A stretch of DNA of 60,000 nt from Bolinopsis microptera (taxonomy: Eukaryota > Ctenophora > Tentaculata > Lobata > Bolinopsidae): NCBI RefSeq assembly GCF_026151205.1, contig NC_087077.1:436001-496000 (forward strand), in the 5' to 3' direction. The position numbers and the translations under genes were made by a program. Position 1 is the first letter of the stretch. The number at the start of each line of letters is the position of its first letter. Positions 10,034 to 60,000 of this stretch are shown in pieces. The notes under the pieces were generated by a model. That model did not search any database, was not told the DNA's origin, and worked only from the letters and a program-made list of their open reading frames with translations.

Positions 10034-10066
<33 letters not shown>

Positions 10067-11734: not shown

Positions 11735-13332
11735 TTTGTGTAATATAAATACTCACTAGTATTGGCAGCACGGTAGTTTGGGTAATATAAGTACTCACTA
11801 GTATTGGCAGCACGGTAGTTTGTGTAATATATGTACTCACTAGTATTGGCAGCACGGTAGTTTGGGTAATATAAGTACTCACTAGTATTGGCAGCACGGT
11901 AGTTTGTGTAATATATGTACTCACTAGTATTGGCAGCACGGTAGTTTGGGTAATATAAGTACTCACTAGTATTGGCAGCACGGTAGTTTGTGTAATATAT
12001 GTACTCACTAGTATTGGCAGCACGGTAGTTTGGGTAATATAAGTACTCACTAGTATTGGCAGCACGGTAGTTTGGGTAATATAAGTACTCACTGGTATTG
12101 GCAGCACGGTAGTTTGTGTAATATATGTACTCACTAGTATTGGCAGCACGGTAGTTTGGGTAATATAAGTACTCACTAGTATTGGCAGCACGGTAGTTTG
12201 TGTAATATATGTACTCACTAGTATTGGCAGCACGGTAGTTTGTGTAATATAAGTACTCACTAGTATTGGCAGCACGGTAGTTTGGGTAATATAAGTACTC
12301 ACTAGTATTGGCAGCACGGTAGTTTGTGTAATATATGTAGTCACTAGTATTGGCAGCACGGTAGTTTGGGTAATATAAGTACTCACTAGTATTGGCAGCA
12401 CGGTAGTTTGGGTAATATAAGTACTCACTGGTATTGGCAGCACGGTAGTTTGTGTAATATATGTACTCACTAGTATTGGCAGCACGGTAGTTTGTGTAAT
12501 ATATGTACTCACTAGTATTGGCAGCACGGTAGTTTGTGTAATATATGTACTCACTAGTATTGGCAGCACGGTAGTTTGGGTAATATATGTACTCACTAGT
12601 ATTGGCAGCACGGTAGTTTGTGTAATATATGTACTCACTAGTATTGGCAGCACGGTAGTTTGGGTAATATAAGTACTCACTAGTATTGGCAGCACGGTAG
12701 TTTGGGTAATATAAGTACTCACTGGTATTGGCAGCACGGTAGTTTGTGTAATATATGTACTCACTAGTATTGGCAGCACGGTAGTTTGGGTAATATAAGT
12801 ACTCACTAGTATTGGCAGCACGGTAGTTTGTGTAATATATGTACTCACTAGTATTGGCAGCACGGTAGTTTGGGTAATATAAGTACTCACTAGTATTGGC
12901 AGCACGGTAGTTTGGGTAATATAAGTATTCACTAGTATTGGCAGCACGGTAGTTTGTGTAATATATGTACTCACTAGTATTGGCAGCACGGTAGTTTGGG
13001 TAATATAAGTACTCACTAGTATTGGCAGCACGGTAGTTTGGGTAATATAAGTACTCACTGGTATTGGCAGCACGGTAGTTTGTGTAATATATGTACTCAC
13101 TAGTATTGGCAGCACGGTAGTTTGTGTAATATATGTACTCACTAGTATTGGCAGCACGGTAGTTTGGGTAATATAAGTACTCACTAGTATTGGCAGCACG
13201 GTAGTTTGTGTAATATATGTACTCACTAGTATTGGCAGCACGGTAGTTTGTGTAATATATGTACTCACTAGTATTGGCAGCACGGTAGTTTGTGTAATAT
13301 ATGTACTCACTAGTATTGGCAGCACGGTAGTT
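11735..13332. repeat. 42-bp minisatellite (about 38 copies) carrying a splice donor in every unit
   Basis: The minus-strand unit reads AACTACCGTGCTGCCAATAC, then YAGTGAGTACATAT-type sequence, to a total of 42 bp. The first copy is the end of MED14 exon 20, and the phase-compatible donor (ACTA/GTGAGTAC) is repeated in every unit. Two main variants (ATATATGTAC and ATATAAGTAC on the plus strand) are interspersed, and several units have GG instead of AG in ACTAGT. Since 42 is a multiple of three, the array stays open in two of the three minus-strand frames. In the MED14 frame it reads NYRAANTSEY(I/L)YY(T/P) repeated, then about 20 unique residues to a stop at 11671. Confidence 0.95.
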
Positions 13333-16300
13333 TGGACTGCCCAGAAGGTGCTGGGCGGAGCCTGGTGAGGGCTGCATGGAGGGACTGGGCACTGCTGCTG
13401 GAGAGGGTGGCATGTATTGTGGAGTCTGGGGCGACATCAGTGACATTATAGCGGGAGAGGGTGCACCTGGAGGAAGAGGAGGTTACATTAACCATTACCA
13501 TAGTGATTACCATAGTGATTACCATAGTGATTACCATAGTGATTACCATAGTGATTACAATAGTGATTACCATAGTGATTACCATAGTGATTACAATAGT
13601 GATTACCATAGTGATTACCATAGTGATTACCATAGTGATTACCACAGTAAGCATAAAATCAATATGAATAGGAGGCGATGATACAATATGCATATTGTAA
13701 CAAGAAATGCGGCCGCTTTTCTTTTGTGGATGGCCGCTAAATTTCCCGATCCGTGATGACTTATTTTATTATATTCAATATAACCTGGGGCCCCAGTCTT
13801 TGCTGTTTATAGCATGCAGATAAAGCGCGCGGAGTGACAGGCCGAGCGCCGCCCAGTTAATTCCAAATTGAATTTGAAAATCGTGTAACTAGTATGTTTA
13901 TTGTTTGACTATTGTTTATGCAACCTGACAAGGATCTGTGCAAAATAGTAACACTAACAATAATAACAATATGCTATCAATAAGTGCCTAGTGGGATACG
14001 TACATATCATGGTGAAATTAACAATTTACTTGGTCAGTTCAGTGCCGCGCGACAACAATTATTTAATTCAGAATATCTCGCAAAATAACTTTGCGCAGGC
14101 TAACGTGGCTAACGTGGGCGACATATTGGAGCGCAGGCACGTACGCTCGCTCGCACGGTCGCAAAGCTGCAATATCGAAAAAAAACCTCGATCGCTAACC
14201 CTTGTCCTTGACTCTTTTGTGCACTTTGAGTCATGGATCGGGAAAAAATAAGTCTCAATAAGCAAGGATCTACCCATAGGTGAAGGCTGAGGTTGGACGA
14301 AGGGGTTCTGAGGTGAAGGTTGTGGTTTGTTAGCGGGGGAAGGGTTGTGGTAGCTGGGTGTGTTAGGTTGCTGGCTGTAACCTGGAGTACCGGGAAAACC
14401 TGACAAAATGAGAACGTCATGTTAAGCTTAACAACAGAGCTAAACAACAATGGCAAATGAAAAGTCAATTACGGTTCATTTTGGCAAGTCATAAGCAGCA
14501 TCAACAAAGAAAACGGAGAATTCAAAATAAAGCAATAGTTGTAGGATACGAGATGAAAGTGAAGGTACCGGGGGTGGTCGGCTGAGTACTACCACTATTG
14601 TAGCCAGGTGTTGCTGGCTGGGGGGAGGCAGCAACGTATCTCGAATTAGTATCGGTAGAGTAAGCTGGCACTGCCAGCACTTCAACTGTAGCTCCATCAA
14701 TCCTATCATTTTTAAAAGTGAGACTTTAGAATCCAGACTGTGAAAATCAGTTTTGAAACTGATTTTATGAGAGATGTATGCTAAAAACAAATGCTTATTT
14801 TCAGACACCAATTCCTAAAACCAATTCCTCCAACTTTCACGAACCGTTTAGCGATTAATTCCAGTATTTTCCCCAGCAGATGTATGGGGCTATATTTAGC
14901 GACCCTGGTTGCCCCAGCTGCAGCGGCGTCTCTGATGCAATATGAGTCAGCTGTGTAACATGTGATGTCTACTGCCATGCTGTTCGGACTGTTTCTGTAC
15001 TGGATCCTGAGAATTGTAGGAATTCAAACACACAACATCTTCAAGAGGGATCATGAATAAAACAGTGTTGTTTAAATTTAGGGCATAAATCTTGTATTTT
15101 TAAATATTAACAGAGATATCTTAAATTTGATCCGTTAATTATCTGGTAAGTATGGTTACACAGAATCTCTCCTCACTTACACATATAATCCATGGATAAA
15201 TCTCAATAAAAGAGCATTGTTATTTATCTCTTGCAATTTCTGAACAATCTTTTCAATTAGTTTGCCAAAGACAAAATTATAATAGTCAATTAAGCTGAGA
15301 AAAGTAGATTGGACCATTTCAACTTTAAGGTCGTGAGACAATTTTGAATCGATTCTGCCGATTTTGCTTTCGTTGAAGTATCTCAAATTTTAAAATCTAG
15401 TTCTTTAAAAGAACTTTAAACTACCCATCTCATCTGATTGATGTGGAAATATTATTATTATTCTAATCTACATCGACATTTTTGTAGACCACATTGAACG
15501 ATGGATCAATTATTTAATAACAGCATATAATACAGAGAAATCTAGTAATATACATTATACATTATACATTATACATTATACATTATACATTCATGACGTC
15601 TTGTTACTTGTTCAACAGTTGATAAACTTATATACTACAGTAATTGTTATATACTAGAGGATGTTTGGTGAGTAATTTTATAAACAAACATCATTAATTA
15701 ACATGCCAGCCGCCAGGTGATAATTATCATCTATTAGTTGCAATGTTGTTTTGTTTGCGTTGGCTAGTTAATACTCTTTACTAACGTTCAACATATACTG
15801 AGAACAAAGTCTGTCACCCTGATACATGATCGTCACAACAAACAATAAAAGTAATAATAGAAGCAGAAGAAGCAGAAGAATTTAAAATGGAAGACGAACA
15901 TCTGCATCTGACTTTGTACGAGCTGCTGAAAATGCTGACGGAAGCGGAAACGAAGACCACGGTACAGAAGCTGCAGAAGATTCTAGAACAACAGCAGGTG
16001 CACGTGATGACAGGGAGGATGGATAAAGGGAGGACTCTGCTGCATTATGCTAGCATGTTCAGGTTACCTACGGTTACTAATGGTTACTAATGGTTACTAA
16101 CCATTGAGGACAAGTAGCCGCATATTAGCAACGATCACGATTGGCCAGTTGATCATGACACCCTAGCCTCTGAATTTAAGATGTTTATGAGTGAGATAGT
16201 TGGAACTGCTAAAATCGGGTAACCACATTTATATTTTATAGAAATAATCAAAGGAGATTAAGGGCAGATTTTATTCTTCCAGGAGCACAGTTGCTGTTAA

Positions 16301-19300
16301 AGCGATGTTGAAGATGGAGTGCTGGAAGGGTCTGATAAACGATCAAGACGAAGAGGGCTACACTCCTCTTACACTAGCCTGCCGGATTAAAGGTAGTCTT
16401 AATTTTTAGGGCTCAACAAAATAAAGCGAGGCATTTATGAGACGAAACAAAGTTATGCAATTATCCAGTAATACAGCTCATTAACCAGGCAGCAAAGTAG
16501 CGGAGACATTGATAGACCACGGTAACCAGGTAACCAGGTAACCAGGTAACCAGGTAACCAGGTAACCATGTAACCAGGTAACCAGGTAACCAGGTAACCA
16601 GGTAACCAGGTAACCAGGTAACCAGATAACCAGGTAACCATGTAACCATTAATACAGCCATTAACCAGGCAGCAAAGTAGCGGAGACATTGATAGACCAC
16701 GGAGCACGACCTGATATCTTGACTGCACAAGGACAGTCAGTGGTACATTACTGCTCGATTGCTGGTGATATCTTGTTCCTACGGTATATAGCAACTAGGA
16801 TTGATTTGAGGCAATATTGTAGGGTACAGGCGGTGGGGGAGGTGGAGCCTATACATCTGGCCAGTCAACATGGTAATTACCTTTATCTCTATACCTTATA
16901 TCTTATCTCTTATTTTATCTTTATCTCTAACAGCCGCAGCAGTGCTTCATTGGTTGTGAACCAGAACCAATAGTGCTAGTAGCATGAATAAATGACTTTC
17001 ATTTCTCCTTCTGCCAGGGAATACTGATGTACTAGAACTATTAGTTGAACTGGGAGCAGATGTAGATGTGGCTGATGGAAAAGGAAGAACTCCGCTATTC
17101 TTAGCCATTCTCTCAAGTAACATTCAGGTCATACAGAGGCTTTTATTTTCAGTATTGACTATTTTTTGTGCCACTGTTTTCAACAGAATCAAACATGATT
17201 CATCTCAATTTTCATACAAAAAACGAAAAACGAAACTCAATTTAAACCCACAGGCAATAGAGTTATTACGAAGAGAAGGAGCTCAGTTTATGTTCGATAC
17301 AGAGAACTGTAAAGCAATGGTTGTTGGGCTGATATCCCGACAATCAACCCAGTGTATCTGCTACCTGTTAGGAGAGGATCTCAGGTACATTTTCAAGATC
17401 AATATTCAGGTTCTTATAAGAGCCTTTTATGACAAAGAGCTTCAAGATTCACATATCCAATCACTTTCGCTCTCACTTTCACTTGTAATGGTATTTTCTT
17501 TCAGGTACATCACAGCATTTAGCAATATAATATTCAATCTTCCCTTTACCAAAGAAACTGATGATTATGTGAGAAGTGTTTTAGGTAGGCTCCTCGAGGA
17601 CAACTACAACACTTCCATCGAGTTAAGGCGTGAAATGGAGGGAAGGATGAAAGAGGAACTCAGACTCATACTGGCTGGGAGGTCTGCAGCGTTAAAAAAC
17701 GAAAGTGACTGTAACAGCGTGACGTCGTCAGAGATAAGGGGTAAAATAAAGCGGTTTATAGAATGGCTGACGTATTGTTATCACGCAATAGATTTTAAGA
17801 AAAGACGCGCAACGATTCCCGAATACGTCAAACAGAAGAAAGCAAGCTTCCCAGGATACTTTTCTCAGCTGTGGAAAAATCCTCACTTCTTTTTGAGTAC
17901 AAAGAAGCCATCAGCTAAAAAATCTCCCAGGTAAATATGTACAATAGTAGATATGCCAAACTCCAGAATCCAGCTCACGTTTAAAATACCGATATCAGAA
18001 ATCAATAACGCAGTATCAAGCATCATTTTGATAGATCAGTTTTGTGGATAATAACGTCTTCTTTCAGTTATCTTGCAGCCTGGCATGCAATGGATGACAT
18101 CTGGGAGAAGCTTCAGAAAAAAGAAACGAGTATAAAGAGTCTGAGTGACGAAGCCAAGTGTTTCCTATTGGATTGTTATCACTTGTGGACTAAGGACACT
18201 ACAGAGGAACAGGGGTTCTGTATCACTATCTCTTCCTACAAAGAAGAAATCAGACTCGTTCTCAAACAAGTATGGAGAAATTCTCTACGTTTAACAAAAC
18301 CTTTGTCTAAAAATGTGACTCTTTTTCGCATATTTTCTAGGTGCTCATTAGTCATTATCACATCTTATTTTGTTAACTTACAATCTTCATAACATTAACA
18401 GGACCCAGCAACACTGCAAGATTTGCTTTGTTTCCTTGGAGCACTGGCTAGGTTACCCGAGTTGAATGACTTTATAAACGAGACTTTATACAACTGTGAT
18501 CTGGACGCAAGGAAGAATTTGTTCTACAAAACTATCAGAGGGACGCACAGGTAGGGGAATCAACTGAGGAAATTAATAAACGTTGGAATTTTTGGCATTT
18601 ATAAGACCTCTGATAACTAAGTGCTGAGCGTTATTAAAAATTAAATGGACTTCACGAACAACACCTAGTAACACCTAGTAACACCTAGTAACACCTAGTA
18701 ACAGTGAGACACTGAAAAGGTAGCAACAACTCAAAGTAAGTTCTAGTACTTGTGTCTAATGTCCTTGTACAGGTACGATGAAGAGAATGAACCACACAAC
18801 ATGGTTAAGCTGGAAGTAGACCGGTTTCAGATATTCAAGAGTAGCTGTGACAAGGTATGTATTAGCCATATTATTAAATGATATTGTTTTGAGATCCAAA
18901 TTGATGTGCCTCAACAACGCGAACGTTCGTTCCTCTTGATCTGTTAACTATCTTCCATCTGTAACAATTGAAAACTGGTAGGTTATGAACATGACCAACC
19001 CGGAGGACCTATTTAATTTGTCAGTAACGTTCATGGGAGAAGATGGACAAGGCATAGGGATCAGACGAGAATGGATCAACGAACTCATCGAATATATTCT
19101 AGATTTTAGGTATACAATAAACATATCGTTTTGTAAGAGCAATACAACCAAAATACCATATTTGGCCAATTCTGTTAGCGACATTGGACATACACAAAAG
19201 CAATCGCGTGTCAGAGTTTACGGAGTTCTTCCATGTGGCGGGAAAGGTTATTACCAAAGAATTGTCCGGTGTTAATTTATATTTTGTATTTGTGTCAGAG

Positions 19301-22300
19301 TTAAAAGTTTACTATAAGCCAAGTATAACAGAAAGCTTTCAGGAATGGTTTGTTTACAACGAAGAATGGAGGACTCAACTTCCAGCCCAGCATGATAGCC
19401 GAAGATATATACGGGGACAAGTTTACGGAGTTCTTCCATGTGGCGGGAAAGGTTATTACCAAAGAATTGTCCGGTGTTAATTTATATTTTGTATTTGTTA
19501 CGTGCTATCATTAATTATCTCTAATAATCATGAGTCATTAGGGATAAGTTATTAAATGAGTCACACTAATGAGTCATCAGTCAATGAGTGTATGCACATT
19601 TTACAAGAAAAACTTTCCATGAGATTTAATTTCAGGTGATAGGCTTCAGTTTATTACATGGAAATACAATAAATGTGCACTTTACCAACTCCTTCTACAA
19701 ACACATTCTTGATTTCCCTCTCAGTTACAAAGACTTGCCTGAAGAACAGGTTATTTTGAAGATTCCTTTCGTTTTCAATTTTTATGAAACACTATCAGAA
19801 TTAACGAAGTGCTATCATTTATAAGAAGACTATAGAAAAATCCAGCAGTTAGACTTTATCCTTCAACAGTCAACACTGATCCTCTTAAACAATAATTATA
19901 AATCTGCTTCATATTATATAATCAAGAGGCTTGCATATGAACATATTGACATGGGTGTAGAGTTGAGCCTGTACGGAACCTAGTAGTTTCAGTTCCTTGT
20001 TTAACTTGCCGTACAGCAAGGACATCCACTACTTTAGCCCGGCGAGGCACATAGCTCACTCCACAACTCCGTGTCAAATGTTTCATATATACTAGCCAAG
20101 AACACAAGATATATCCATTATCCTTGTGTGTTTGCGAAGCGCTCATTACCGGTCATTATATCAGGTGAGGCACATGGGGACCATTCTGAAGGAAGATGTG
20201 ACGAATTGGGATCTGACTTTTGCTAAAGACGAGGCTGATCTTCTAACTGGAGAATTGACGACTTATAATTTGATAGAAGACGGTGCCAATATACCAGTCA
20301 CAGAGGTCGGTACAATATCAACATCAAACTTTATTTAAAGCAAATTACAAAATTTGAGAACAGAGGTGAAAGCGCTATATAGAGATTACAGACAGCACAC
20401 ATGTTTCAGGAGAACAAGGCTCGGTACGTGGAACTATACTCGACCTACATCATGACAGAATCAATCAAAGCCCAAATAGACAGCTTCGTGATGGGATTCT
20501 ACAGCATAATTCCCAAAGCAAGTATCAGGTTCTTTAAAGCGGATGAGCTAGAGTTGCTCCTGTGTGGGCTTACCGACATTTGTCACGACAACTGGAAGTT
20601 GTACACCGAGTACGAGTCCTGCCAGGTAAAATTAAGTGACTACAATTTGGGGGTTTAATAGTATTGATAACGATATGATAATAACATAGTTGACTAAAAT
20701 GACATCCACTTGTGCTGTGCATGAACCCCGATTTACCGCGAAGTTTGGGGAATGCAAACAGCCGCGGTAAATCTATATTTTATAATGACAAACAATTCAA
20801 AGGAATTACAATTCGTGCAATTCGTTTCTGTTAAAGGAAGAACTTCGATACTCTCTCAGGTGGTGGAATGGTTCTGGGAGTTAGTTTGCAAGATGCCACA
20901 GAATGAGCGCCAGAAACTTCTCCTCTTCTGGACAGCATTTCCGCGCGTTCCGTACGGGGGCTTTGCCGCGTTTAAACAACCCCTGGTAGTGGAGGTGGTG
21001 GACGAGGGTGACGAGTACCTGCCACGTGCACACACGTGCTTTAAAGTTCTCAAGTTGGGGAGATATTCAAGTGAAGAGGTGCTGAGGAGGAGGCTGAAGA
21101 CTAGTGTAAAGTTTGCTAGTGTGGGACACGGAATGGCATAGTTTGAGAGATTTGCTACTGAAGCTATAAACAAGGTTCAGAGGTGTACCAAGTTCACCAA
21201 TTTTTTACAGATTGATTTTTGGATGATCTCTTGTATAGTTGTATATTATTCAATTTAATTTGGGCGGTTAAGTTCATTCGAACCCTTGTTGTCAATTCAA
21301 TTCTATTAAACCACTACATACAGAGTTAGGTTTGTAAACTTTAGCACAGCAGCACACATCATATCACATGATATCACTGGTCAGTACCAGTAATCGACCG
21401 GGATTACCAGCGCCGTGAAATCCCGGCACGGGGGAGCTATTTCTTCCCGGCCCCGGCCGATTTTCAATTTTTGCCGGGAATTTGGCCGGGAATTTTTGAT
21501 CGAAATCGGCCTAAAACTTTCATATAAATCTTAAAATGGATTTTCAATTTTGAAAGGATGATGTCCAGAGTGCCAACTTTCAAGAGCAATCCTTTGTTTT
21601 TGTAACCTCTGATAGTTTTTACAATTACGATATTCCACCTAAATCCTTAAATTGAATTAATTTATTATATTCACGGCCCCGGCCAAATTCCAGAACGGCC
21701 AATTCCCGGCCCCGGCAAAATTTGGACATTCCCGGCCCCGGCCAAATCCTACCCCCGGTCGTTTACTGGTCAGTACAACGCACCTAAAAGTATTAGCGGA
21801 GTGTGTGAAGTAGGACCAGGGACTCCTGCAGTTGCTGCTCGCCTTGTCCAGGCCCCAGTAGGAAACCTTGAGCTTGGGGAGGCTGTACACAACAGAGCAG
21901 AGGTGCGCAGTGCGTTGTAAGGTGTGAAGTAGCTTGAAGATACTCTGATGTGTTCCTAGTTCGTGTTCAAGGTGCTCCTGAAAATACGAGCCATTGTTCT
22001 AACATATTTTAATATTTCTATAATAATACTATAATATGATGCGAGCTTCTACTTGTACTTAAAAGATCGCAATAACCGAGCATCCTCCGATTAACGATTC
22101 CTACATGACAGAAACCAATTTACACAACGAAATGGAAACCCACCTTTATGAGCGCGTGGGGATTAGGCCTGCCTGATCTGGACTGATAGAACACGAGTCG
22201 GTACTTGGTTTGTCTGAGGTTAATGTAACACTCATACTCTACCCCCTCCACTGAGTAGCCCAGGATCATATAGTGGAAGTTGTACTGTTTAATGTAGCCG

Positions 22301-43628: not shown

Positions 43629-43946
43629 TTCTTTCCCGGTAGTATGTATCCGACATTCATTCCCTCCAACGTTTAGCATCTATATGATGTTCTCTTTCCC
43701 GGTAGTATGTATCCGACATTCATTCCCTCCAACGTTTAGCATCTATATGATGTTCTCTTTCCCGGTAGTATGTATCCGACATTCATTCCCTCCAACGTTT
43801 AGCATCTATATGATGTTCTCTTTCCCGGTAGTATGTATCCGACATTCATTCCCTCCAACGTTTAGCATCTATATGATGTTCTCTTTCCCGGTAGTATGTA
43901 TCCGACATTCATTCCCTCCAACGTTTAGCATCTATATGATGTTCTC
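43629..43946. repeat. 63-bp minisatellite, 5 copies
   Basis: Five nearly identical copies of a unit containing TTCTTTCCCGGTAGTATGTA and CCTCCAACGTTTAGC, about 450 bp upstream of the MED14 start codon. The unit begins with a variant of the motif described for 43.6-49.3 kb. Confidence 0.95.
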
Positions 43947-44889
43947 TGATATGTTCAATGGAATTTTACCATGCGCCATAAAAAAGGGGAAATAAGAGGA
44001 TCGTGTCAAAAGTACCTCCTGTTCTTATGTTGTAACAGTAAGGAAAATATCAATAATAGGTATCATTGATAATTTATTCTTTCCCAGTTTTATTTGTCTT
44101 GCAATAAACACGCCATGTTTCACATGACATACATGATGCTCTTTGACATGTTCCAAATTCATCGACACAAACGTTACAGAGCTGACAGGCAAGTCCCGGC
44201 ACGTTGAAGTGATTTTATTCTTTCTCAGGTAGATTTGTCGACAATGATTTCAGTTAACAATCATTGAAAACATTAATTTTTCTGCTAGTGCGGAACCTCA
44301 CTTATTCCCTCCCAGAAAATACCTGGAGGACACGTCACACTGTCAATGTTCACATGTTGTTATCATCCCCCACTTTTTATTCTTTCCAAGCAATATTTGT
44401 GTAACTTCATGCACACAAAGAATTTTGCCATTATACATATTAATGATTTATTCTTTCTCATGTATATCTGTTGAGCAATAAATCCGGCCATGTTCAAAGA
44501 TCTAAATGATCTTCGGTTACATGATTTTCAAAGCATCACTTTATTCTTTCTCAGGAGGATATGCTCACGAATATTTCGCTGTACAGTCTTTGACAACGCT
44601 AGAGATAGAGATAGAGAGATACCCCACATTTACCAGGTTCTAACATATTATTCTCTTATCTTTCAATGCAACAAAGTAGGCAAATTTATTCTTTCCCAGT
44701 TTTATTTGTTCTGTAACAAATCTCAGAGCACAGTTCACAGATGCCATGGTGCTCTTTTACATGAAATGAAATGAAATGAAATGAAATGCATCACTTTATT
44801 CTTTCTCAGGAGGATTTGTTGACAAATATTTCGTTGGACATTCTTTCGCGAAATGAGAGATAGAGAGCCATGGTTTCATTAACTGAAAC

Positions 44890-44988
44890 ACAGTTGAGCC
44901 ACATGTTAAGACACAGTTGAGACACGTGTTGAGCCACATGTTAAGACACAGTTGAGACACGTGTTGAGACACGTGTTTAGACACAGTA
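44890..44988. repeat. Short tandem repeat GTTGAGACACGTGT / CACATGTTAAGACACA
   Basis: Alternating 14-16-bp units over about 100 bp. A microsatellite (AAATG)n lies at 44761-44789. No gene is associated. Confidence 0.85.
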
Positions 44989-45120
44989 ATACAGTATACT
45001 ACTAAATTATACTCTGCTGCTCCTACGTTTTGCTTCTAGTCATATCCAACACTTATCATTCTTCTGAAATGAAATAAATAATAAATAATTATGCAATTAT
45101 ACAATTATACATACCTTATA

Positions 45121-47143: not shown

Positions 47144-47354
47144 TTATAAAAAGATACCTGAATAAAGTTTTACTTTTTGAGTTTGTATGAATTCATAAAA
47201 TATGTCGATCAATTCATTCATCCAATATTTAATTAATTTAATGATCTAAGGACGTTGAGATTGAAACAAAGTTGGCAATAAATGTCAATGGTCCCATACT
47301 GAGCTTTCTATAGTTTAGCTGGATGGTTATCATTAATATTGATTATTTAGTTGG

Positions 47355-47566
47355 TATACAGCAATAGCTGCTATGGTCATTCGAGCGGAGACCATGGCCT
47401 ATCGGGCGCCTATTGGACGCCTATCGGGCGCCTATCAGACGCCTATCGGGCGCCTATAGGCGTCCGATAGGGGCCCGATAAGCGCCCGATAGGCGTCCGA
47501 TAGGCGCCCGATAGGCCATGGTCTACGCTCGAATGACCGCTGCTATATCTATATATATTGCTGTAT
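47355..47566. mobile_element. Long near-perfect palindrome (foldback MITE candidate)
   Basis: The two halves are mirror complements around 47457/47458. Each arm, from ATACAGCAATA through GGTCATTCGAGCG and AGACCATGGCCTATCGGGCG, is about 100 bp. Each arm is itself built of five or six CCTATCGGGCG/ACGC decamer-like repeats. The whole can fold into one hairpin. There is no coding capacity. Confidence 0.85.
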
Positions 47567-50295
47567 CGTTATTACTTATTTATAGGTCTTGTTATATGTA
47601 AAAGAAAAAAGAACGCAGTTTCACGTAACTATGTATATTTTTAAAGTTTCGATACGATTTAATTTATATGTTATATCATATTCAATTTCACGACGAAAAT
47701 TATCTTTTTTTCAATATCTCCGATTTACATTATAAACCAATTTTAGCGGCTTTCTCAGTTTGTTTCTCGAACATTAAAACTCAATGTGACGAAAAAAATG
47801 AAAGAATTCAAAACGATTCCAACAATATTAATACAACTCGTACACAACGTAATAATTCCAGTTTCACCAATGAAAATGTTTTCTCATTAATAACTGCTTA
47901 GCGAAGAATTAGGATAACAAATACAAGACACAATTAAGAAATATTGCAAATAAATGCAAGATAAAATCAATGCCATACAGAGCACCTAGTATAAGATGTC
48001 ATTTTAACCCCAACAAGGACAGGGCCTTGATAAATATGGAATCTATTTTTGTGACAGATAATTTATTCTTTCTCAGTACCATAACTGTCCACGAGTTAAT
48101 TCATATTAATATACAATTATACAGCTGTGGTGATGAGTAATTCTAATTCTATCTATCTAGACGATAAAAATAATTTATTAGTAACATTAGCCATGTTAAC
48201 ACCTACCACAAATCAAACCAGGGGTCAGACTCAATACCCATGTACCAGAGTTACGTTATCTTGCTGCTAATAGTAAAGAGTCTGATTTACACGATCATGC
48301 TTTAGTCACACTTATCACCACAGTAAAGTGTCCAAGAATTCCGACCAGCATTTGAATGGTTTCTAATTTATTCTTTCTCAGTGAAGATTTTCCACAGATC
48401 GGATGTAAGTCCACATAGGTTCCTAGTAACGCATTCTGGATAATTCCCCCTGCAATTTGTTTCGTCTAACAAAAAGCTAGGTATAAATGTGGGATATTGT
48501 TGAATAAGCTGCTAAGTAAAGAATTGGAGATATGAAGTACAGATCTCCACAGCCATATGTCTAATATGAACCACAGCTAGTAACATTAACCTTATTAACA
48601 TCAATATTAAAATCAACCACAGCTAGTAACATTAACCTTATTAACATCAATATTAAAATCAACCACAGCTAGTAACATTAACCTTGTTAACATCAATATT
48701 AATATCAACCACAGCTAGTACCATTAACCTTATTAACATCAATATTAATATCAACCACAGCTAGTAACATTAACCTTGTTAACATCAATATTAAAATCAA
48801 CCACAGCTAGTAACATTAACCTTGTTAACATCAATATTAAAATCAACCAGGATTGGAATCACTCATGGTTTGCTGCCAACAAGCTAATTATTTATTCTTT
48901 CCCAACAACTCTGATCACAATGACACACTGAGAAGTCGTGGTTATCAAACAGCAGAGTTTGCTGCTTAGTAAAGTGTTAGCTTCCCATGATAACCACACG
49001 GTCAGGAAATTGCTTTAAGTTTCCTGGTCCAAGTTTCTTAACTGCATGAACGTAAATTGTTAGACAGCATTTCTCTTTACCACATTTAGTAGGTCTAAGG
49101 TCACACTTGCTCTCATATTTACTCTAGCGGCAAAGGTAATGTTACTGCTATTTCTAGAAGTACTGCTGAGTAAAGAATCTGATTTATTCACTAATTCACA
49201 AATCATCCTGCTGCAAATATGTAATATAAGAAGAATTCTTGCATCGTACGCAAGCATTTTATTATTTCTCGTCAAGATTTGTTCACAACTGATACTGGGT
49301 CTTGGTCACTGTTCTTCTTTCCAGTTTCCATAACATCTGGATAATTAATAAAGTAATAAGGTTAAAAAACGAAGCAATTCATTTCTTATCAATCCAATAT
49401 CAGAGAGGGGAGGGCTCATCTTACTCATCTCGCAGTAAAACGAAAAATCACAATCAAATTTATAATGATGATAGAAATTGGAAAATGCACTATAAGCAAT
49501 AAACATCCATAACCGATTAAGATAGATACGTTATAATATTAACAGACAAATTATTGTACAATGATAAAACTCACAGAAAGTATTATAATTCATCAGGCTG
49601 ATCCGTATTCTCATAAATATAAAACCAAATACTAATCAGTCGCAATAACGGAATCAATTTGAAATACAAATTCATTTTTTTAAATGTTGATAACGACACT
49701 GAAAAATCAAACATGGTCTTAATTGCCAAACTCTGTACAGCAGTACAAAATTACCAAATCAAAAATAAACACTAGCAAAACACTGTCATTTCAAACTTTT
49801 AAGCGACAACAACATTACAGAAGTTCAACTTTACTCCTAAACAACGAAACGGGTACTTTAAATGATAACCGGACGCAAAGTGATGTGATCAAAGGGAATG
49901 TGATGCAGCTAAGGGCTAGGCTTCAATAAACTCTAATTTACAGGAAGAGAAAACTCTATTATATGAGGACCCAAATTAAATTAAGTTTTGCTACATCATG
50001 GCTATAAATTCTCGATCTTTACATAAATACTTTACTCGATTACAATACTTTAATACTTATTTATTATTTATCTATTTATTTATACTATCATAAATACTGC
50101 TAAAGGAAGGTTAAAACAACAGACTATCAAATTTGTTACACAAACAAGAAAATCATCTTGTTATTTCCTTTCCAACGAAACTACCTGTTGTGGAAAGGCA
50201 TTTCGAATTCAGTTAGGATAAAATCGTAATAATTAGTACTGCAATATATCACTCATACTAATTTATGAGCATTTAATCTATAGTATCACAGCTTT
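47567..50295. other. Intergenic region
   Basis: AT-rich DNA with the 46-bp minisatellite (separate entry), some of the TTTATTCTTTCYCAG motifs, and no convincing gene. Frames of 60-77 codons in this stretch lack domains and have biased AT-driven codon content. Confidence 0.45.
48571..48848. repeat. 46-bp minisatellite, 6 copies
   Basis: Units starting CCACAGCTAGTAACATTAAC recur every 46 bp, with minor alternation of CTTATT and CTTGTT. Confidence 0.95.
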
Positions 50296-52997
50296 TTAAG
50301 CCCTCTTGCTGAGCTCATCCAGTGCTTCCTGCATTTTAGTCTGGACACTGTTCGTCAGTTCAGTGACGTCATCAGAGGAGAGACCCACGGTGGAGATGGG
50401 TTCTAGAACCTTCATTCTTATCACCCCGCTGTTGAACACCCAGTTCTTACCTGGTGGCATAGTTTGCTAATAGAATTGAGATTTCAATGTTTTTACTGAA
50501 CGTTGACTTAGTATGGCTAGAGATATTGATGTTATGGAAAAGATTAAAATCGTTGTAATGTATACCTTTATTTTTCGAAATTGTAAATCAAATTCCGTCT
50601 ATCAGTTGACCTTTTAATTTCAAAAATGTTAAATGCAGAAATATCCGAAATAATTATTCCTTATTTTTAAACTTACCATCGTATAGTGACGGTGGAATGT
50701 ATATCACAACTGGTACTATCGGAGCTTGACATTGTTGCGCCATATGGAATCCACCTGACAGGAAATCAAGAAATTTAGCTAATTATTAGACGATGGTCAG
50801 CAGAGGTTGGTTTGCTTCTAAACTAGTTAGAATGATCGTAATGATCACAATTACTGAATTACAGGTTTCATTATTGATTGTTTAGCTACGACAGCTCATG
50901 CATGATTAGTAATTAGTCGATACCGTCATCCAATAATTAGATTGCAAAGTGTAAATACTTAACCATTCAGAATCGTTAAAACAAGCAAGTAGTCCGCTAT
51001 GTTCCATTACATAATAATAATAATACAATATAATTATTAGATTATAAATTTAATATAATAATAATATAATTATTAGATTATAAATAAAGTAACAAACGGG
51101 AACAAAAAATGCCTTAATATACTTTGTATAAAAACGTTACCTTTCTTGAAGGGAAGCATTTTCCCATCGAAGGCCTTGTTTCGGGTTCCTTCAGGGAATA
51201 CACAAACACGGAGCCGTTCATTCTTTATACGCTCATTTATTAAGTTCATGTGGTCACGCACTTCCCCGCTGGCTGAATGGGTTCGGTAATAACAGATTAG
51301 CAATTGAAAATTAAAATACTTTTCATTAGACATTCGATATAAAATTAATAAAGAATTCGACAATTTTCTTCATTATAAGCATTAAGCATATTGGACTAAC
51401 ATATCCGAATATATAACAATTATTCCAAAAATAGTGACAGTTAGTGAACATGTCTCACCTCCACTACACTGCACTACAGTTAGTGAACATGTGTCTAGTA
51501 TAGTGTATAGTGTATAGTATAGTGAACATGTCTCATGTATTTATAGTTGCCATGTTGCACACTGCACTCACCTCCACTTTTACGTGTTATAAACTCGTGG
51601 CCACTGAGATAAGCCGCCCATCCAAAGAAGGGAACGTATAATAGGGAGCGCTTCATCAGAATGATGGCTCTGTGGGGCCAGATCCTGCGGAGATGTGATT
51701 AGCCAGCATGTCAAGTGTGGAGTAGGACAGTTTAGGTTGTAGTTTAAGTTTAAATCAACAGCTCTTTTTAGGTGAGTTACATAGCTGTGACTACAAGAAC
51801 ACAGCTGTAGATCCCCAGCTCAGCTGTAGATATTATGTGGTTGTTGAAAATAACAAACCTAGCAATACACAAGGTATCACAAACCTAGCAATACACAAGG
51901 TATCACAAACCTAGCAATACACAAAGTATCAAGAGAAGACTGGTGATTGGGGGAGAGAATGTAACCACCCTCGTGAGACTCCAGGTGTTCTTCACCCTCA
52001 GCTTCTACTGTTATACCCAATAATAATCTGAAGAGGAAAACTTATAAAAAAGAAATTACGCATCTGCTTGTTAGTGAACTGTTCCGCACATTGCTGAGAA
52101 AAGTGTTACTCGAAACAACGATTTAACGAACAACAAATAAGACTGTAAAGATTAAAAGACACAGCATAAACGCTGCAAGAACAAACAACAAACCACATCA
52201 CACTGTTTGAGATGATTACTCCGCAATAGAACACACACTAGACTCAGACTAGAAATCGGCTCTTACACTAATGCCACAGTACACACAGTACACACAGTAC
52301 ACACAGTACACACAGTATCCTAACATTGAGTAATGATAGTAGCCCGTGCTAAACCGAGTAATTAATGGCACACTACTTTAATAAGGGCTGTTCATAAAAT
52401 GGACGATAAAGTATATGCATATTAGCGACAAGAGAAACGCCATTGTTGGACGTGAGGAGAGTGAGGACTCCTCAAACGACATTAAATAAATTCCTTCTGT
52501 AACGTCCTCAATAAATTTAATAGATTTGTAGTGTTGTAATTAGTTATACAATATTCCTTCTGTAACGTCCTCAATAAATGTAATAGATTTATAGTGTTGT
52601 AATTAGTTATACAATATTTAAATTCCTTCTGTAACGTCCTGAATAAATGTAATAGATTTGTAGTGTTGTAATTAGTTATACAATATTTAAATTCCTTCTG
52701 TAACGTCCTGAATAAATGTAATAGATTTGTAGTGTTGTAATTACTAATTACAACACTACTAATTACAGTAATTAGTTATACAATATTTTACCTGGAGAGA
52801 TGGTAAAATAGGGGAGCAAGTGTGTAGGTGTTATCTCTGTTTTTAGGGAAGAACGGACAATAAACCATGTGAACCACAGCTAACACCAGGAAAACCCAAG
52901 AGTAAAGGACCATCCTGAGGATGTAGTTGACATGTTTGGAGAGGAGGCTGAGGAGGAGGGTGAGAAGGGTGGTGGCGGCGAGGTATAACAACCACAT
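50296..52997 (-). CDS. 1-acyl-sn-glycerol-3-phosphate acyltransferase (AGPAT), 6 exons
   Basis: It converts lysophosphatidic acid to phosphatidic acid at the ER in glycerolipid synthesis. Exons on the minus strand: 52997-52792, 52027-51911, 51684-51572, 51272-51141, 50754-50677, 50450-50296. All phases agree, giving 266 residues, close to animal AGPAT1/2 (278-283). An N-terminal hydrophobic segment (LYLAATTLLTLLLSLL) and a second one (VLYSWVFLVLAVVHMVY) anchor it. The four acyltransferase motifs are present in order: NHQSSLD (motif I, catalytic His and Asp), GHEFITR (motif II), FPEGTR (motif III) and PIVPVVI (motif IV). Exon 2 ends in a triplicated donor. Which AGPAT paralogue this is cannot be decided here. 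Confidence 0.93.
51855..51930. repeat. 26-bp triplication of the AGPAT exon-2 donor
   Basis: ACAAACCTAGCAATACACAA occurs three times at 26-bp spacing. On the minus strand each unit holds the last bases of exon 2 and its donor (TGTGTATTGCTAG/GTTTGTG). The right-most copy joins the coding sequence in phase. Confidence 0.95.
52478..52790. repeat. About 65-bp array downstream of the AGPAT exon-1 donor
   Basis: Four copies of a unit with TTCCTTCTGTAACGTCCT, ATAGATTT and TAATTAGTTATACAATATT. On the minus strand the array begins just inside intron 1 (CTCCAG/GTAAAATATTG) and contains a local inverted duplication TGTAATTACTAATTACA at 52736-52752. Confidence 0.9.
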
Positions 52998-52999
52998 GG

Positions 53000-53637
53000 C
53001 TAACTAGTAGTATTCAGAGAGATTAGTTTAATTAAAAGTTAGTGTCAAAAGCAAACAGTTACTTTTGACTAGAATGATTGGTTAACTTACGTAGTTTCAC
53101 GTTAATTTTCATCAATTGACTTGGTAACTGAGAAGTGAGAGTAGAAATAATACAATATCTCATTCATCTTATCAGATGAGGTTACATCCATAAAATAACA
53201 AAATAAAAAGATAAAACAAAAATATGTTCAATAAATAAACACTGAAGATGTATCAATTGCTAATGCAACTCAGCAACTCTTCACAAACAAATCAATTATA
53301 ATAGATTTTCGTACCCATTTTAACGGGTACTTTTGATTTTAAGAAGAATTCGTCAATAAATTTTTAAAGGAGCTGAGTCCGATCATCAGCAAATGGGAAG
53401 TCATAGCTCAACGAGGACATTTTATCAGGGTTTTGCAAATTTGTTAGGCGATCACACTGGTATTCACCTAGTCATCTTATCTGAAGTTAAAAAACTGGTA
53501 GTCCACCTGGACTCTCTCTCACACTCTTTAAAACTTATCAAATACTAAAAATTCAGACTCTCCAATAAACGGTCATCTTGAAAACACTTCCTAGATCAAT
53601 GGAATCAGTGCGCACAGCACACTGCTCAACATGTCTC
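53000..53637. other. Spacer between AGPAT and the RGG gene
   Basis: Upstream region of AGPAT and 3' flank of the RGG-protein gene, both on the minus strand. AT-rich; no further gene is seen. Confidence 0.4.
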
Positions 53638-56600
53638 TCAAGTCCTATTAGAGTTAGCCCACTGATCGCTGGACTGAGAGCTAGGGGGGCCTCCTCGACC
53701 ACGACCCCTGAAATCACCACGGCCCCTACCCCGGTCACCACCACGACCACGAGCTCCTCCTCGGTCTCCTCTTCCTCGGGAGTTACCACGGAAACCAGAC
53801 CCTGCGGAGAACAAAATATATTAATATTAAATAGAATCTGGTTAATTAGTACACTTAAGAGTAAGGTCGCTGATTGAGTTTTTTTTAATCGACAATCCCC
53901 GGAAAAAATTTTCAATTCTTCAAACCTCTGTTAGATCCCCTATCTCCACCCCTTGAAGTGAAACCTCTGCCCTACTACTGGGATCTGGATACGGTCTGCT
54001 CCCGTCTCCTCTACCTAATATAACTCAAGTTAGCTAATGAAGATACGGTCTGCTCCCGTCTCCTCTACCTAATATAACTCAAGTTAGCTAATGAAGATAC
54101 GGTCTGCTCCCGTCTCCTCTACCTAATATAACTCAAGTTAGCTAATGAAGATACGGTCAACTCCCGTCTCCTCTACCTAATATAACTCAAGTTAGCTAAT
54201 GAAGATACGGTCTTCTCCCGTCTCCTCTACCTAATATAACTCAAGTTAGCTAATGAAGATACGGTCTGCTCCCGTCTCCTCTACCTAATATAACTCAAGT
54301 TAGCTAATGAAGATACGGTCTGCTCCCGTCTCCTCTACCTAATATAACTCAAGTTAGCTAATGAAGATACGGTCTTCTCCCGTCTCCTCTACCTAATATA
54401 ACTCAAGTTAGCTAATGAAGATACGGTCAACTCCCGTCTCCTCTACCTAATATAACTCAAGTTAGCTAATGAAGATACGGTCTGCTCCCGTCTCCTCTAC
54501 CTAATATAACTCAAGTTAGCTAATGAAGATACGGTCTGCTCCCGTCTCCTCTACCTAATATAACTCAAGTTAGCTAATGAAGATACGGTCTGCTCCCGTC
54601 TCCTCTACCTAATATAACTCAAGTTAGCTAATGAAGATACGGTCTGCTCCCGTCTCCTCTACCTAATATAACTCAAGTTAGCTAATGAAGATACGGTCTG
54701 CTCCCGTCTCCTCTACCTAATATAACTCAAGTTAGCTAATGAAGATACGGTCTGCTCCCGTCTCCTCTACCTAATATAACTCAAGTTAGCTAATGAAGAT
54801 ACGGTCTGCTCCCGTCTCCTCTACCTAATATAACTCAAGTTAGCTAATGAAGATACGGTCTGCTCCCGTCTCCTCTACCTAATATAACTCAAGTTAGCTA
54901 ATGAAGATACGGTCTGCTCCCGTCTCCTCTACCTAATATAACTCAAGTTAGCTAATGAAGATACGGTCTGCTCCCGTCTCCTCTACCTAATATAACTCAA
55001 GTTAGCTAATGAAGATGCGGTCTGCTCCCGTCTCCTCTACCTAATATAACTCAAGTTAGCTAATGAAGATACGGTCTGCTCCCGTCTCCTCTACCTAATA
55101 TAACTCAAGTTAGCTAATGAAGATACGGTCTGCTCCCGTCTCCTCTACCTAATATAACTCAAGTTAGCTAATGAAGATACGGTCTGCTCCCGTCTCCTCT
55201 ACCTAATATAACTCAAGTTAGCTAATGAAGATACGGTCTGCTCCCGTCTCCTCTACCTAATATAACTCAAGTTAGCTAATGAAGATACGGTCTGCTCCCG
55301 TCTCCTCTACCTAATATAACTCAAGTTAGCTAATGAAGATACGGTCTGCTCCCGTCTCCTCTACCTAATATAACTCAAGTTAGCTAATGAAGATACGGTC
55401 TGCTCCCGTCTCCTCTACCTAATATAACTCAAGTTAGCTAATGAAGATACGGTCTGCTCCCGTCTCCTCTACCTAATATAACTCAAGTTAGCTAATGAAG
55501 ATACGGTCTGCTCCCGTCTCCTCTACCTAATATAACTCAAGTTAGCTAATGAAGATACGGTCTGCTCCCGTCTCCTCTACCTAATATAACTCAAGTTAGC
55601 TAATGAAGATACGGTCTGCTCCCGTCTCCTCTACCTAATATAACTCAAGTTAGCTAATGAAGATACGGTCTGCTCCCGTCTCCTCTACCTAATATAACTC
55701 AAGTTAGCTAATGAAGATACGGTCTGCTCCCGTCTCCTCTACCTAATATAACTCAAGTTAGCTAATGAAGATACGGTCTGCTCCCGTCTCCTCTACCTAA
55801 TATAACTCAAGTTAGCTAATGAAGATACGGTCTGCTCCCGTCTCCTCTACCTAATATAACTCAAGTTAGCTAATGAAGATACGGTCTGCTCCCGTCTCCT
55901 CTACCTAATATAACTCAAGTTAGCTAATGAAGATACGGTCTGCTCCCGTCTCCTCTACCTAATATAACTCAAGTTAGCTAATGAAGATACGGTCTGCTCC
56001 CGTCTCCTCTACCTAATATAACTCAAGTTAGCTAATGAAGATACGGTCTGCTCCCGTCTCCTCTACCTAATATAACTCAAGTTAGCTAATGAAGATGCGG
56101 TCTGCTCCCGTCTCCTCTACCTAATATAACTCAAGTTAGCTAATGAAGATACGGTCTGCTCCCGTCTCCTCTACCTAATATAACTCAAGTTAGCTAATGA
56201 AGATACGGTCTGCTCCCGTCTCCTCTACCTAATATAACTCAAGTTAGCTAATGAAGATACGGTCTGCTCCCGTCTCCTCTACCTAATATAACTCAAGTTA
56301 GCTAATGAAGATACGGTCTGCTCCCGTCTCCTCTACCTAATATAACTCAAGTTAGCTAATGAAGATACGGTCTGCTCCCGTCTCCTCTACCTAATATAAC
56401 TCAAGTTAGCTAATGAAGATACGGTCTGCTCCCGTCTCCTCTACCTAATATAACTCAAGTTAGCTAATGAAGATACGGTCTGCTCCCGTCTCCTCTACCT
56501 AATATAACTCAAGTTAGCTAATGAAGAACCTATCAAGATCTAGCAAATTAGTGGTTATTTGAGCCACAGTCTGTTTTCTCTATTAGATAAATAAACTAGT

Positions 56601-58880
56601 GACCCGGACCAGTGTAATTCTTATCTAGAACAAAAGTCTTGACCAGTGACCACAATACAGCTAAAATCTAGATTATATACAGTGAATACCTAATATTACA
56701 ATGATTGTATTTACAATAATAAATAATATTAGCCTATAGTCATTGTAAAACATATTGTTACCTCTGAAGCTGCCCCTGTCTCCGCCCCTGAACCCTCTCC
56801 TTCCACGTGACCCGTCACCCCTCCCACGTGACACAGACCCTTCATGTTGTTGTTGTCCCTCGTTACTGAAGGTCCTTCTGGGGGGCCCTCCCCCTCTTTG
56901 GGGGGCTGTGTTGTAGTTGAAGGTGGACGGCTCTGAGGATGGCATTTCTAGGATCGTTATTCTTCAAAATATTAACGAAATTTACTGTCTAAACCATGTC
57001 ATCATCTGTGAGTTAATCTCAGGTCGGATAACGCACAGTATAACTACAATGCAGCTGTTACCTTGTCCAGGAGGAGGTGGCTGGTTGAAGCCGGTTGTCT
57101 GCTTGTTGGTATTTTGGTTACTCTGGTTCTGGGTATCCCAGCCTCCTGTATTGTTCCAGTTCCCTTGTTCTACGTACGTACCTTGCTGGTCGAACCTGGG
57201 GCATGTCACGTGGTTAGACATGATCACGTGTTGGTCAGCAATAAGTTCATGTCACTGCAATACCCTTTAACTTTAGGTTAGAAGTTCCTTGGAAATGATA
57301 TGTAAAAGATAGGGTAATGTGATAAAAAGTGAGCTTACCCATATTCGTCGTTAGCATTGAAGCTGGTTAGATTGGCTGTGTTCTGTTGTTGCTGCTGCTG
57401 TTGGGTCTGGGTTTGACCTTGTTGTTGATTCTGGTTTTGTTGTTGGTTCTGTTGGTTTTGTTGGTTCTGGTTTCGCTGATTTTGCACTCTGGAAAGAACT
57501 TTTGTTAACCACTTATACTCGTTATGTGATTCCAGAAAATAATTACACGGCCGTTAAATAATACTAATTCCAAAATATTTCACAGAATATTTTGAATAGG
57601 ATATGCTTTGTTCAATTATAAAACCTGCGCAGGAATTCCAGCTCGCAAAAGAAATCCCAATTAAAAGAAGACAGGGCTGTGAAAAAGAAGAGAACGATCT
57701 AAATTATTATAAATATACTTCAAAGGGTGAACTAACGTGGCAGCTATCTCGAGTTCTCCCTTCATCTTCTCAGTACTGATCTGTAGTCCAGGAACCACCT
57801 CTGTTCTTATCATGGGCAGGATCTGGTGCAGGGACTTGCTGCTCGTCTTCTCGTTACTCTTACTGATCACCTGATGTCAGAGGGGGCTTGTGACGTCATA
57901 CTTGTGACGTCATATTACTCGTGTCATTCTTGTCACTTGTGGCGTGATATTGAAATTATTCAGCAAAATCAGCGGGATTTATTGGCAAGTGTCGTTATAC
58001 AGGTGTTCAAATAACTAAGCAACAGTGAAAACATGAGAGTTTAAAATCACAACATATGCAACAGTGTAACAATATTCAACACGAACAAAGAAAATATTCG
58101 AAACAAACAAACAAAGGAAACGACCCTTAAAATATATAAAATAAACTAGTGTAACTGTAACTCTCAGGAAATTCCCTCAATAATGCGTGAAACTTGATTA
58201 AAAACTAACCTTAGAAGGAGCGAGAGTATTGATGACATTATCATCCACCTGTAGGTTCTGCGTCTCACCCATACCCGGTATTACTTTAGAGTCCAATATA
58301 ACTGGTTCCTGGTCTGAAATACAGGTAATTGTACTAATTGACTGCTAATTAAATGATAATCACACTGTTGACTGTTCGAGTACACTGATCAACTGAGGAA
58401 GCTTCATTACTCTTTTTTTAAATTTCAGACAAAACGATTTAGCTTGGAACGTAGGAGAACAAGGCACTAAGCATACATTAATATAATATTTTAGTTAGAA
58501 AAGCCGGTGTAGAAAAGCCGTTGAGCGGTTCATAGCCGGCTCTAAGCCAATTCTAGAGCGGTTCTAGCCAGTTCTTTATCGGTATTCAACCTTTTGGCCA
58601 AATATTACTGAGCTTATTATGTTTAATACATACCACTAACAATATTACTGAGCTTATTATGTTTAATACATACCACTAACAATATTACTGAGCTTATTAT
58701 GTTTAATACATACCACTAACTAATTACTGAGCTTATTATGTTTAATACATACCACTAACGCACACCTACCCATTTGTAATCCATGAGGATCCTCAATAGC
58801 AAGGTCCTGAAGCTCAGTTTGATCGTACAGTCCCTCGTTAGGGTTCGTGTTCAAATTGTATTTATCCTGCATCAGATCTC
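53638..58880 (-). CDS. Gln/Asn-rich RGG-box RNA-binding-like protein, 3' part
   Basis: Exons on the minus strand: 58880-58770, 58313-58210, 57870-57737, 57488-57339, 57195-57062, 56947-56762, 54014-53979, 53801-53638, with all phases agreeing (about 339 residues). The 5' part lies beyond the right edge. The N-terminal visible part (EPVILDSKVIPGM, HQILPMIRTEVVPGLQ) is unrecognised. A Q/N-rich stretch follows (NQNQQNQQNQQQNQNQQQ), then WNNTGGW, then RG/RGG boxes (SRGRGDGSRGRRGFRGGDR; RGNSRGRGDRGGARGRGG; RGRGRGGPP) to the stop. RGG plus prion-like Q/N sequence is typical of RNA-granule proteins. Caprin family C-termini look similar, but no caprin homology domain is visible. Intron 6 holds the 54-bp array and the 5'-most visible acceptor lies in the 82-92-bp array. 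Confidence 0.75.
53991..56526. repeat. 54-bp minisatellite, 47 copies, each with a splice acceptor
   Basis: The unit ACGGTCTGCTCCCGTCTCCT (first 20 of 54 bp) repeats almost without change. On the minus strand each unit has a good acceptor (GAGTTATATTAG/GTAGAGG) followed by 22 nt and GTATCT, a possible donor. Copies 4, 5, 8 and 9 carry variants (AA, TT, TT, AA instead of GC in TCTGCTCC), in mirror order. Copies 20 and 40 share ATGCGG. The left-most copy leads into the small RGG exon at 54014-53979. Confidence 0.95.
58607..58760. repeat. 41-bp array next to a donor of the RGG gene
   Basis: Four copies of CAATATTACTGAGCTTATTA with TGTTTAATACATACCACTAA. On the minus strand the array begins about 10 nt inside the intron after exon 58880-58770. 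Confidence 0.9.
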
Positions 58881-60000
58881 CTAGAAAATACAAAGTATAG
58901 GGTTAACTACAGTCCCTCGTTAGGGTTCGTGTTCAAATTGTATTTATCCTGCATCAGATCTCCTAGAAAATACAAAGTATAGGGTTAACTAATACAGTCC
59001 CTCGTTAGGGTTCGTGTTCAAATTGTATTTATCCTGCATCAGATCTCCTAGAAAATACAAAGTATAGGGTTAACTACAGTCCCTCGTTAGGGTTCGTGTT
59101 CAAATTGTATTTATCCTGCATCAGATCTCCTAGAAAATACAAAGTATAGGGTTAACTACTATAACATACAGTCCCTCGTTAGGGTTCGTGTTCAAATTGT
59201 ATTTATCCTGCATCAGATCTCCTAGAAAATACAAAGTATAGGGTTAACTAATACAGTCCCTCGTTAGGGTTCGTGTTCAAATTGTATTTATCCTGCATCA
59301 GATCTCCTAGAAAATACAAAGTATAGGGTTAACTACAGTCCCTCGTTAGGGTTCGTGTTCAAATTGTATTTATCCTGCATCAGATCTCCTAGAAAATACA
59401 AAGTATAGGGTTAACTACTATAACATACAGTCCCTCGTTAGGGTTCGTGTTCAAATTGTATTTATCCTGCATCAGATCTCCTAGAAAATACAAAGTATAG
59501 GGTTAACTAATACAGTCCCTCGTTAGGGTTCGTGTTCAAATTGTATTTATCCTGCATCAGATCTCCTAGAAAATACAAAGTATAGGGTTAACTACAGTCC
59601 CTCGTTAGGGTTCGTGTTCAAATTGTATTTATCCTGCATCAGATCTCCTAGAAAATACAAAGTATAGGGTTAACTAATACAGTCCCTCGTTAGGGTTCGT
59701 GTTCAAATTGTATTTATCCTGCATCAGATCTCCTAGAAAATACAAAGTATAGGGTTAACTAATACAGTCCCTCGTTAGGGTTCGTGTTCAAATTGTATTT
59801 ATCCTGCATCAGATCTCCTAGAAAATACAAAGTATAGGGTTAACTACTATAACATACAGTCCCTCGTTAGGGTTCGTGTTCAAATTGTATTTATCCTGCA
59901 TCAGATCTCCTAGAAAATACAAAGTATAGGGTTAACTAATACAGTCCCTCGTTAGGGTTCGTGTTCAAATTGTATTTATCCTGCATCAGATCTCCTAGAA
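58828..60000. repeat. 82/85/92-bp minisatellite copying an acceptor and half an exon, at least 14 copies
   Basis: CAGTCCCTCGTTAGGGTTCG recurs at spacings 82, 85, 82, 92, 85, 82, 92, 85, 82, 85, 85, 92 and 85, and the array runs off the window. On the minus strand every unit contains the acceptor TTTGTATTTTCTAG and the first 53 bp of the exon at 58880. Only the left-most copy continues into the rest of that exon. In all other copies the reading frame meets a stop soon after. Confidence 0.95.

Follow-up and report, generated by a model that had tools for sequence, protein, structure and literature searches.

Intron 18 of the human ABCA7 gene holds a 25-bp variable number tandem repeat (VNTR; 23.7 copies in the reference) that directly flanks exon 18; the first GT of the VNTR serves as the canonical donor, the intron is greatly lengthened by it, and both exon skipping and the retention of a single unit have been measured in RNA (PMC5954066). 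Introns born by duplication have been documented in potato (PMC4974935) and proposed for some introns of Drosophila (PMC2891723), and in human segmental duplications internal tandem repeats are described as altering gene structure, with intron gain proposed in some cases (PMC2812944). Here, we analyze a stretch of 60,000 nucleotides of the ctenophore Bolinopsis microptera (the window; C6:436001-496000 in an assembly of 264.65 Mb in 232 contigs), in which minisatellite arrays lie on or next to splice sites of the genes MED14, HACE1, AGPAT and WDR33. ABCA7 is a direct precedent, with a donor-containing tandem unit and a lengthened intron, although it is a single human locus with RNA and population data, whereas the present observations come from the sequence of one assembly and comprise several genes, units of 4-92 bp, and donors as well as acceptors. 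The potato and Drosophila gains (PMC4974935, PMC2891723) similarly involve tandem duplication over an exon-intron boundary or of a segment with splice signals; there, however, the intron itself is new, whereas the arrays described here lie in introns whose residual length is normal. The repeats of human segmental duplications are comparable in that minisatellite expansion changes exon or intron length, but they belong to recent paralogs, and half of them lie in coding sequence (PMC2812944). Judged by titles and the openings of abstracts, no genome-wide survey of array position relative to splice sites was found among the papers listed by the literature searches.

The association of arrays with splice sites is real, recurrent and modest, and for the most part it is plainly explained. 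We consider it probable that the arrays are ordinary minisatellites, which tandem duplication and slippage have produced in introns that already existed and are mostly short, and that they represent intron lengthening rather than intron birth. The introns are short, with a median of about 210 bp, so that under a neutral model a unit placed at random will often straddle a splice site. A straddling duplication would be nearly harmless if the spliceosome kept using the exon-proximal copy, in which case the extra copies would become intron. That the arrays arose within pre-existing introns is shown by the repeats themselves and by the intron lengths that remain after collapsing them (see below); arrays of this kind may spread through unconstrained sequence until a constrained splice signal stops them. 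The arrays and duplications on which this analysis is based are the following (window coordinates):

11734..13334, minus strand: 42-bp array of 38.1 copies, containing a candidate MED14 donor with its first copy at 13310/13311
16062..16100, plus strand: 10/20-bp array, beginning at HACE1 donor 16062
16489..16668, plus strand: HACE1 exon-3 acceptor (at 16668), present a second time upstream together with about 34 bp of exon
19214..19294, plus strand: copy of the HACE1 exon-11 end and donor, in the preceding intron; approximate limits, counted from the translation
41363..41522, minus strand: 12-bp array of 13 copies, 3 bp behind MED14 donor 41525
42413..42684, minus strand: 15-bp array of 18 copies, 1 bp behind MED14 donor 42685
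51853..51931, minus strand: 26-bp array of 3.0 copies, spanning AGPAT exon-2 donor 51910, with 21 bp of exon within the array
53988..56527, minus strand: 54-bp array of 47 copies, inside a WDR33 intron
58601..58759, minus strand: 40-bp array of 4 copies, 10 bp behind WDR33 donor 58769
58826..60000, minus strand: 85/92-bp array, spanning WDR33 acceptor 58880 and taking in 55 bp of exon; it continues to L013:294

Gene models were built by spliced alignment guided by human protein sequences, and the strength of each splice site was expressed as a percentile relative to 241 introns of other genes. An earlier sequence-only reading had placed arrays at splice sites in four unrelated genes. The arrays exist, and several of them lie on or beside sites backed by homology or reading phase; the acceptor proposed for the 47-copy array of WDR33 is not established, and two arrays said to abut donors lie 10 and 48 bp away from them. 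As far as position is concerned, the unit contains the AGPAT donor and WDR33 acceptor 58880 by homology, and the MED14 donor by phase, assessed by eye; in each of these, where the point was tested, the exon-proximal copy fits.

The clearest case is AGPAT, which a spliced model locates at 53.0-50.3 kb. The exon-2 junction is placed by gap-free homology at the exon-proximal copy of the 26-bp array, so that the tripled donor reported earlier holds, and the donor is of ordinary strength (53rd percentile). Another array had been thought to abut the donor of AGPAT exon 1; it lies 48 bp away. In HACE1, both the duplicated exon-3 acceptor and the accompanying 8-mer array were recovered: 16.5 copies of an 8-bp unit (16516-16648) separate the two acceptor copies, which are both of normal strength (40th and 34th percentile). 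The second copy of the exon-11 duplication sits at the exon end, at donor 19451.

MED14 was identified from its second exon and from matching spliced models, and extends on the minus strand from 43.1 kb to past the window start. The short arrays behind the donors of exons 2 and 4 abut them as described, with gaps of 1 bp (42685) and 3 bp (41525). The 42-bp array had been interpreted as the exon-20 donor in 38 copies. The array and a candidate donor, AATACTA|GTGAGT in phase 1, are present, and the open exon that starts at window -3313 (CTCTCTCCAG|GC), 16.6 kb from the array donor, is likewise in phase 1 (by eye); however, the spliced aligner placed the junction elsewhere, so that the array donor is supported by phase and not by homology. 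This donor is of ordinary strength (17th percentile), and, 42 being a multiple of 3, every copy of it would preserve the reading frame; the acceptor of the intron of about 16.6 kb that holds the array touches no array. When the 42-bp unit, the only one searched, was compared with the assembly, 17 of 17 places among the best matches listed fell in its own array and no dispersed copy was seen, unlike the dispersed sequence that characterizes introner-type mobile elements. It is very improbable that this array is instead a coding repeat, translated as a variable run of 14-residue repeats. A frame of 603 codons is open through the entire array, and Tandem Repeats Finder reports 0% indels; but a second frame is also open, over 570 codons, which makes openness uninformative, and read-through would cross many donors, given that GTGAGT is kept in 36 of the 38 copies.

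The MED14 span (window:5803-43148) also encloses an F-box gene, HACE1 on the opposite strand, and genes encoding a protein with three kringles and a receptor of the rhodopsin type. Within the same span, open frames of 998 codons (window:25145-28138, minus strand) and 1084 codons (window:30960-34211, plus strand) encode endonuclease and reverse transcriptase domains and resemble non-long-terminal-repeat retrotransposons.

The fourth gene, previously labeled an RGG protein, was identified as WDR33. Four WD40 exons located immediately beyond the window share 63-75% identity with human WDR33, and the junction NRPG|DLMQDKYNLN of the model is in phase and free of gaps. The same junction places acceptor 58880 (36th percentile) by homology inside the 85/92-bp array, which runs to 60294, in L013, with about 17 copies in all, in agreement with the earlier description of at least 14 copies of an acceptor with part of its exon. 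The 40-bp array had been said to abut a donor; its gap from donor 58769 is 10 bp. The claim that a real acceptor is present in 47 copies was not confirmed. The 54-bp array is intronic, its unit comprises 22 bp that code for RGG sequence, an acceptor of low strength (5th percentile) and a microexon donor at the 1st percentile, and splicing at its last copy yields an exon out of the RGG frame. It stops 16 bp ahead of the first candidate acceptor of the next exon (exon G), and all three candidate acceptors between the array and that exon are at the 0th percentile, so that the acceptor is not established. The following three routes keep the frame: (i) the use of acceptor GAG|GTT; (ii) the inclusion of one 22-bp array microexon, followed by CAG|AGG; (iii) the skipping of exon G. 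Ahead of exon G, a 26-bp GT...AG piece splits an otherwise continuous RGG-coding stretch (window:53926-53988, minus strand, with 56762-56950). This may reflect a decaying exon or an intron in the making. In the neighboring sequence (L013:603-4369), some 314-327 copies of a 12-bp unit form an array that reaches as far as the acceptor of one of the WD40 exons of WDR33; the unit includes the motif CTAAC, which resembles a branch point.

Tandem duplication of a segment bearing AG and GT can make a new intron, and the copy numbers of 2, 3, 14, 38 and 47 had been proposed as stages of intron birth or growth. We regard this explanation as improbable. An intron born by duplication would barely exceed its repeat, and the introns analyzed here are ordinary once their arrays are collapsed, so that birth is unsupported: with each array reduced to one unit, introns with touching arrays (defined below) measure 36-13,759 bp, with a median of 211 bp, and at least 108 bp remain for 29 of 31 arrays, compared with a median of 210.5 bp for all 312 introns (introns of up to 20 kb were included in this list). 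These lengths are not those of introns made up of the duplicated segment, WDR33 exon G being a possible exception. The potato and Drosophila introns cited above speak for birth, as do observations on WDR33, where exon G is split by the 26-bp GT...AG and one array microexon joined to the remainder restores the RGG frame; on the other side, the sites of such a new intron would be extremely weak (donor at the 1st, acceptor at the 0th percentile), and skipping of exon G would also preserve the frame.

Paralogs provide a further comparison. No other AGPAT gene matched when one was sought for a paralog test of intron age. The ATP1A paralogs L021 and L022 have six common introns in the compared part, and L022 has two extra ones, at amino acids (aa) 731 and 984, both with arrays at splice sites, a coincidence that at first sight favors birth. 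The aa-731 intron, with an array at its donor, is missing from L021 and, by exon lengths, corresponds to no cattle boundary, although some 180 bp of this intron lie beyond its array. The aa-984 intron, with a 58-bp array of 28 copies, matches the cattle boundary located 92 bp before the last one: exon 22 is 92 bp long in the exon table of cattle ATP1A1 (PMC8388727), and the L022 exon of aa 984-1015 is exactly 92 bp long. When the comparison with this table is anchored on the last intron, and no length change is assumed, the L022 introns at aa 906 and 984 coincide with cattle boundaries, and those at aa 686, 731, 803, 848 and 948 do not. The aa-984 intron is therefore likely to be ancient and to have been lost from L021, and the one at aa 731 may have been gained. 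A third ATPase was also considered for this test and set aside, as it looks like a distant type and is uninformative.

To compare the arrays with chance, we defined an array as touching if it spans a splice site or ends within 5 bp of one. Arrays of period 1 and introns shorter than 40 bp or longer than 6,000 bp were dropped; the upper limit removes the 42-bp MED14 array from the intron-based counts. Under the null model of the intron tests, a dropped unit may straddle an exon edge. In the window and its flanks (75 kb), 11 of 53 arrays touch one of the 84 mapped sites (one of which, the MED14 donor at 13310, was included because of its array), compared with 3.07 expected for uniformly dropped units (p = 0.0001), and for introns of up to 6 kb the numbers are 10 of 21 against 4.24 (p = 0.0027). 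Besides the sites already mentioned, those touched include, in the flanks, MED14 -5165 and -3974 and WDR33 60601, 65308 and 65883. The earlier statement that so many cases are hard to explain by chance loses force: in other genes, spanning arrays occur at the rate expected for random placement in short introns (7 versus 6.5 expected).

The latter figure is from a blind sample of 21 genes, 269 introns and 94 arrays, picked without knowledge of repeats, among genes chosen for a known human protein. It comprises set C (13 genes, 186 introns), set V (eight of nine genes named beforehand, 66 introns, criteria fixed first) and set V2 (17 more introns from genes already sampled, same test). MCM7 and PARP1 were left out because their best matches are single long exons, and HSPD1, although named beforehand, because it had no match among those listed; for dynamin, an intron-bearing paralog was used instead of better-matching single-exon copies; and several terminal introns in set V are based on short or weak exons. 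In set C, 14 of 40 arrays touch (9.77 expected, p = 0.066), and among arrays of at least three copies 12 of 21 do so (5.08 expected, p = 2.6e-4); it should be noted that this three-copy cut was made after seeing set C. In the whole blind sample the corresponding results are 20 of 94 against a neutral 14.8 (p = 0.067) and 16 of 40 against 7.2 (p = 1.4e-4). The 20 touching arrays fall in 19 of the 269 introns and in 7 of the 21 genes (XPO1, COPA, ACO2, ATP1A, POLR2A, EFTUD2 and ATP6V1A).

Position was also analyzed for arrays lying wholly inside introns, with nearest gaps of 0-95 bp and conditioned on intron size. In the pooled data, the ends of such arrays fall 0-5 bp from a splice site roughly three times as often as expected: 12 of 46 in the blind sample (4.0 expected, p = 3.6e-4) and 5 of 14 in the window genes (0.97 expected, p = 0.0019). 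The excess is found mainly at donors (8 of 24 versus 2.27 in the blind sample, with gaps of 1, 3, 4, 4, 4, 4, 4 and 5 bp, i.e., mostly 3-5 bp); acceptors yield 4 of 22 versus 1.74 (p = 0.09). Without one intron of a paralogous ATP6V1A pair and the ATP1A aa-731 case, which was dropped because its array contains copies of the exon end and hence really spans the site, 10 of 44 remain (3.83 expected, p = 0.0034). The edge excess is real in the pooled data, but set C and the window supply most of it. Near copies of the 24-bp context were found for 5 of 66 splice sites in the window, and for 0 of 180 sites in the seven control genes analyzed first, compared with 10.8% of intron-interior positions; in these genes splice contexts are thus copied less than the intron interior, which counts against a strong genome-wide effect. 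At exon-interior positions of the same genes, the 24-bp context was duplicated in 0 of 17,638 cases.

Several results weigh against this account of ordinary minisatellites. In the blind sample, arrays of at least three copies touch splice sites far more often than the others (16 of 40 versus 4 of 54, p = 2.2e-4), and the neutral model alone predicts none of this; in V and V2 alone, the figures are 4 of 19 and 2 of 35 (p = 0.17). The outward spreading of arrays is itself inferred rather than seen. The explanation of abutting arrays as aged spanning arrays was rejected, given that identity beyond the edge is not raised (mean of 0.32 at splice edges versus 0.37 at other edges). The pre-specified replication in set V was not significant for arrays of at least three copies (2 of 12 versus 1.40, p = 0.43; 1 of 9 versus 0.89 with a flank-identity filter), nor were V and V2 together (4 of 19 versus 2.10, p = 0.13) or the edge test in V and V2 alone (3 of 16 versus 1.20, p = 0.11). 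All six touching arrays of V and V2 belong to ATP6V1A genes and none to the other genes there; two of the six represent one intron in two paralogs, and one lies on a weak terminal exon. Because cases cluster by gene and the tests treat arrays as independent, the p-values are optimistic. Of the earlier interpretation, part is supported: in pooled data, array edges lie at splice sites more often than under the null, and touching arrays are also found on other chromosomes, in genes of no relation to one another.

The ATP6V1A paralogs L026 and L027, in which touching arrays are unusually common, have common intron positions in the compared part, and at aa 293 both carry an array 4 bp behind the donor.

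The stacking of array edges seen in the blind sample, chiefly on the donor side, and the surplus at splice sites of arrays of at least three copies raise the possibility that repeat formation or expansion is targeted to splice sites, chiefly donors, e.g., by instability coupled to co-transcriptional splicing. We think this unlikely. The 3-5 bp gap at donors is also expected from a selective barrier, the replication is weak and limited to ATP6V1A genes, and the overall touching rate of the blind sample is non-significant. It is quite unlikely, furthermore, that expansion driven preferentially at splice sites, chiefly donors, is a routine way of intron lengthening in this lineage and now and then divides an exon and initiates a new intron, with WDR33 exon G as an example. 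Ordinary duplication and slippage within existing introns remain our preferred explanation.

Among other features of the window are long poly-G tracts (window:2971-3005 and 10008-10095) and about 1.4 kb of imperfect, purine-rich repeats of the GAG type (window:45401-46844).

Splice sites present in 3 to 50 copies amount to natural experiments in how the spliceosome selects one of several identical sites. The rate of spanning arrays suggests that duplications over exon edges are tolerated about as often as neutrality would predict. Should the stacking on the donor side hold genome-wide, it would bear on intron lengthening and on a possible effect of splicing on DNA stability.

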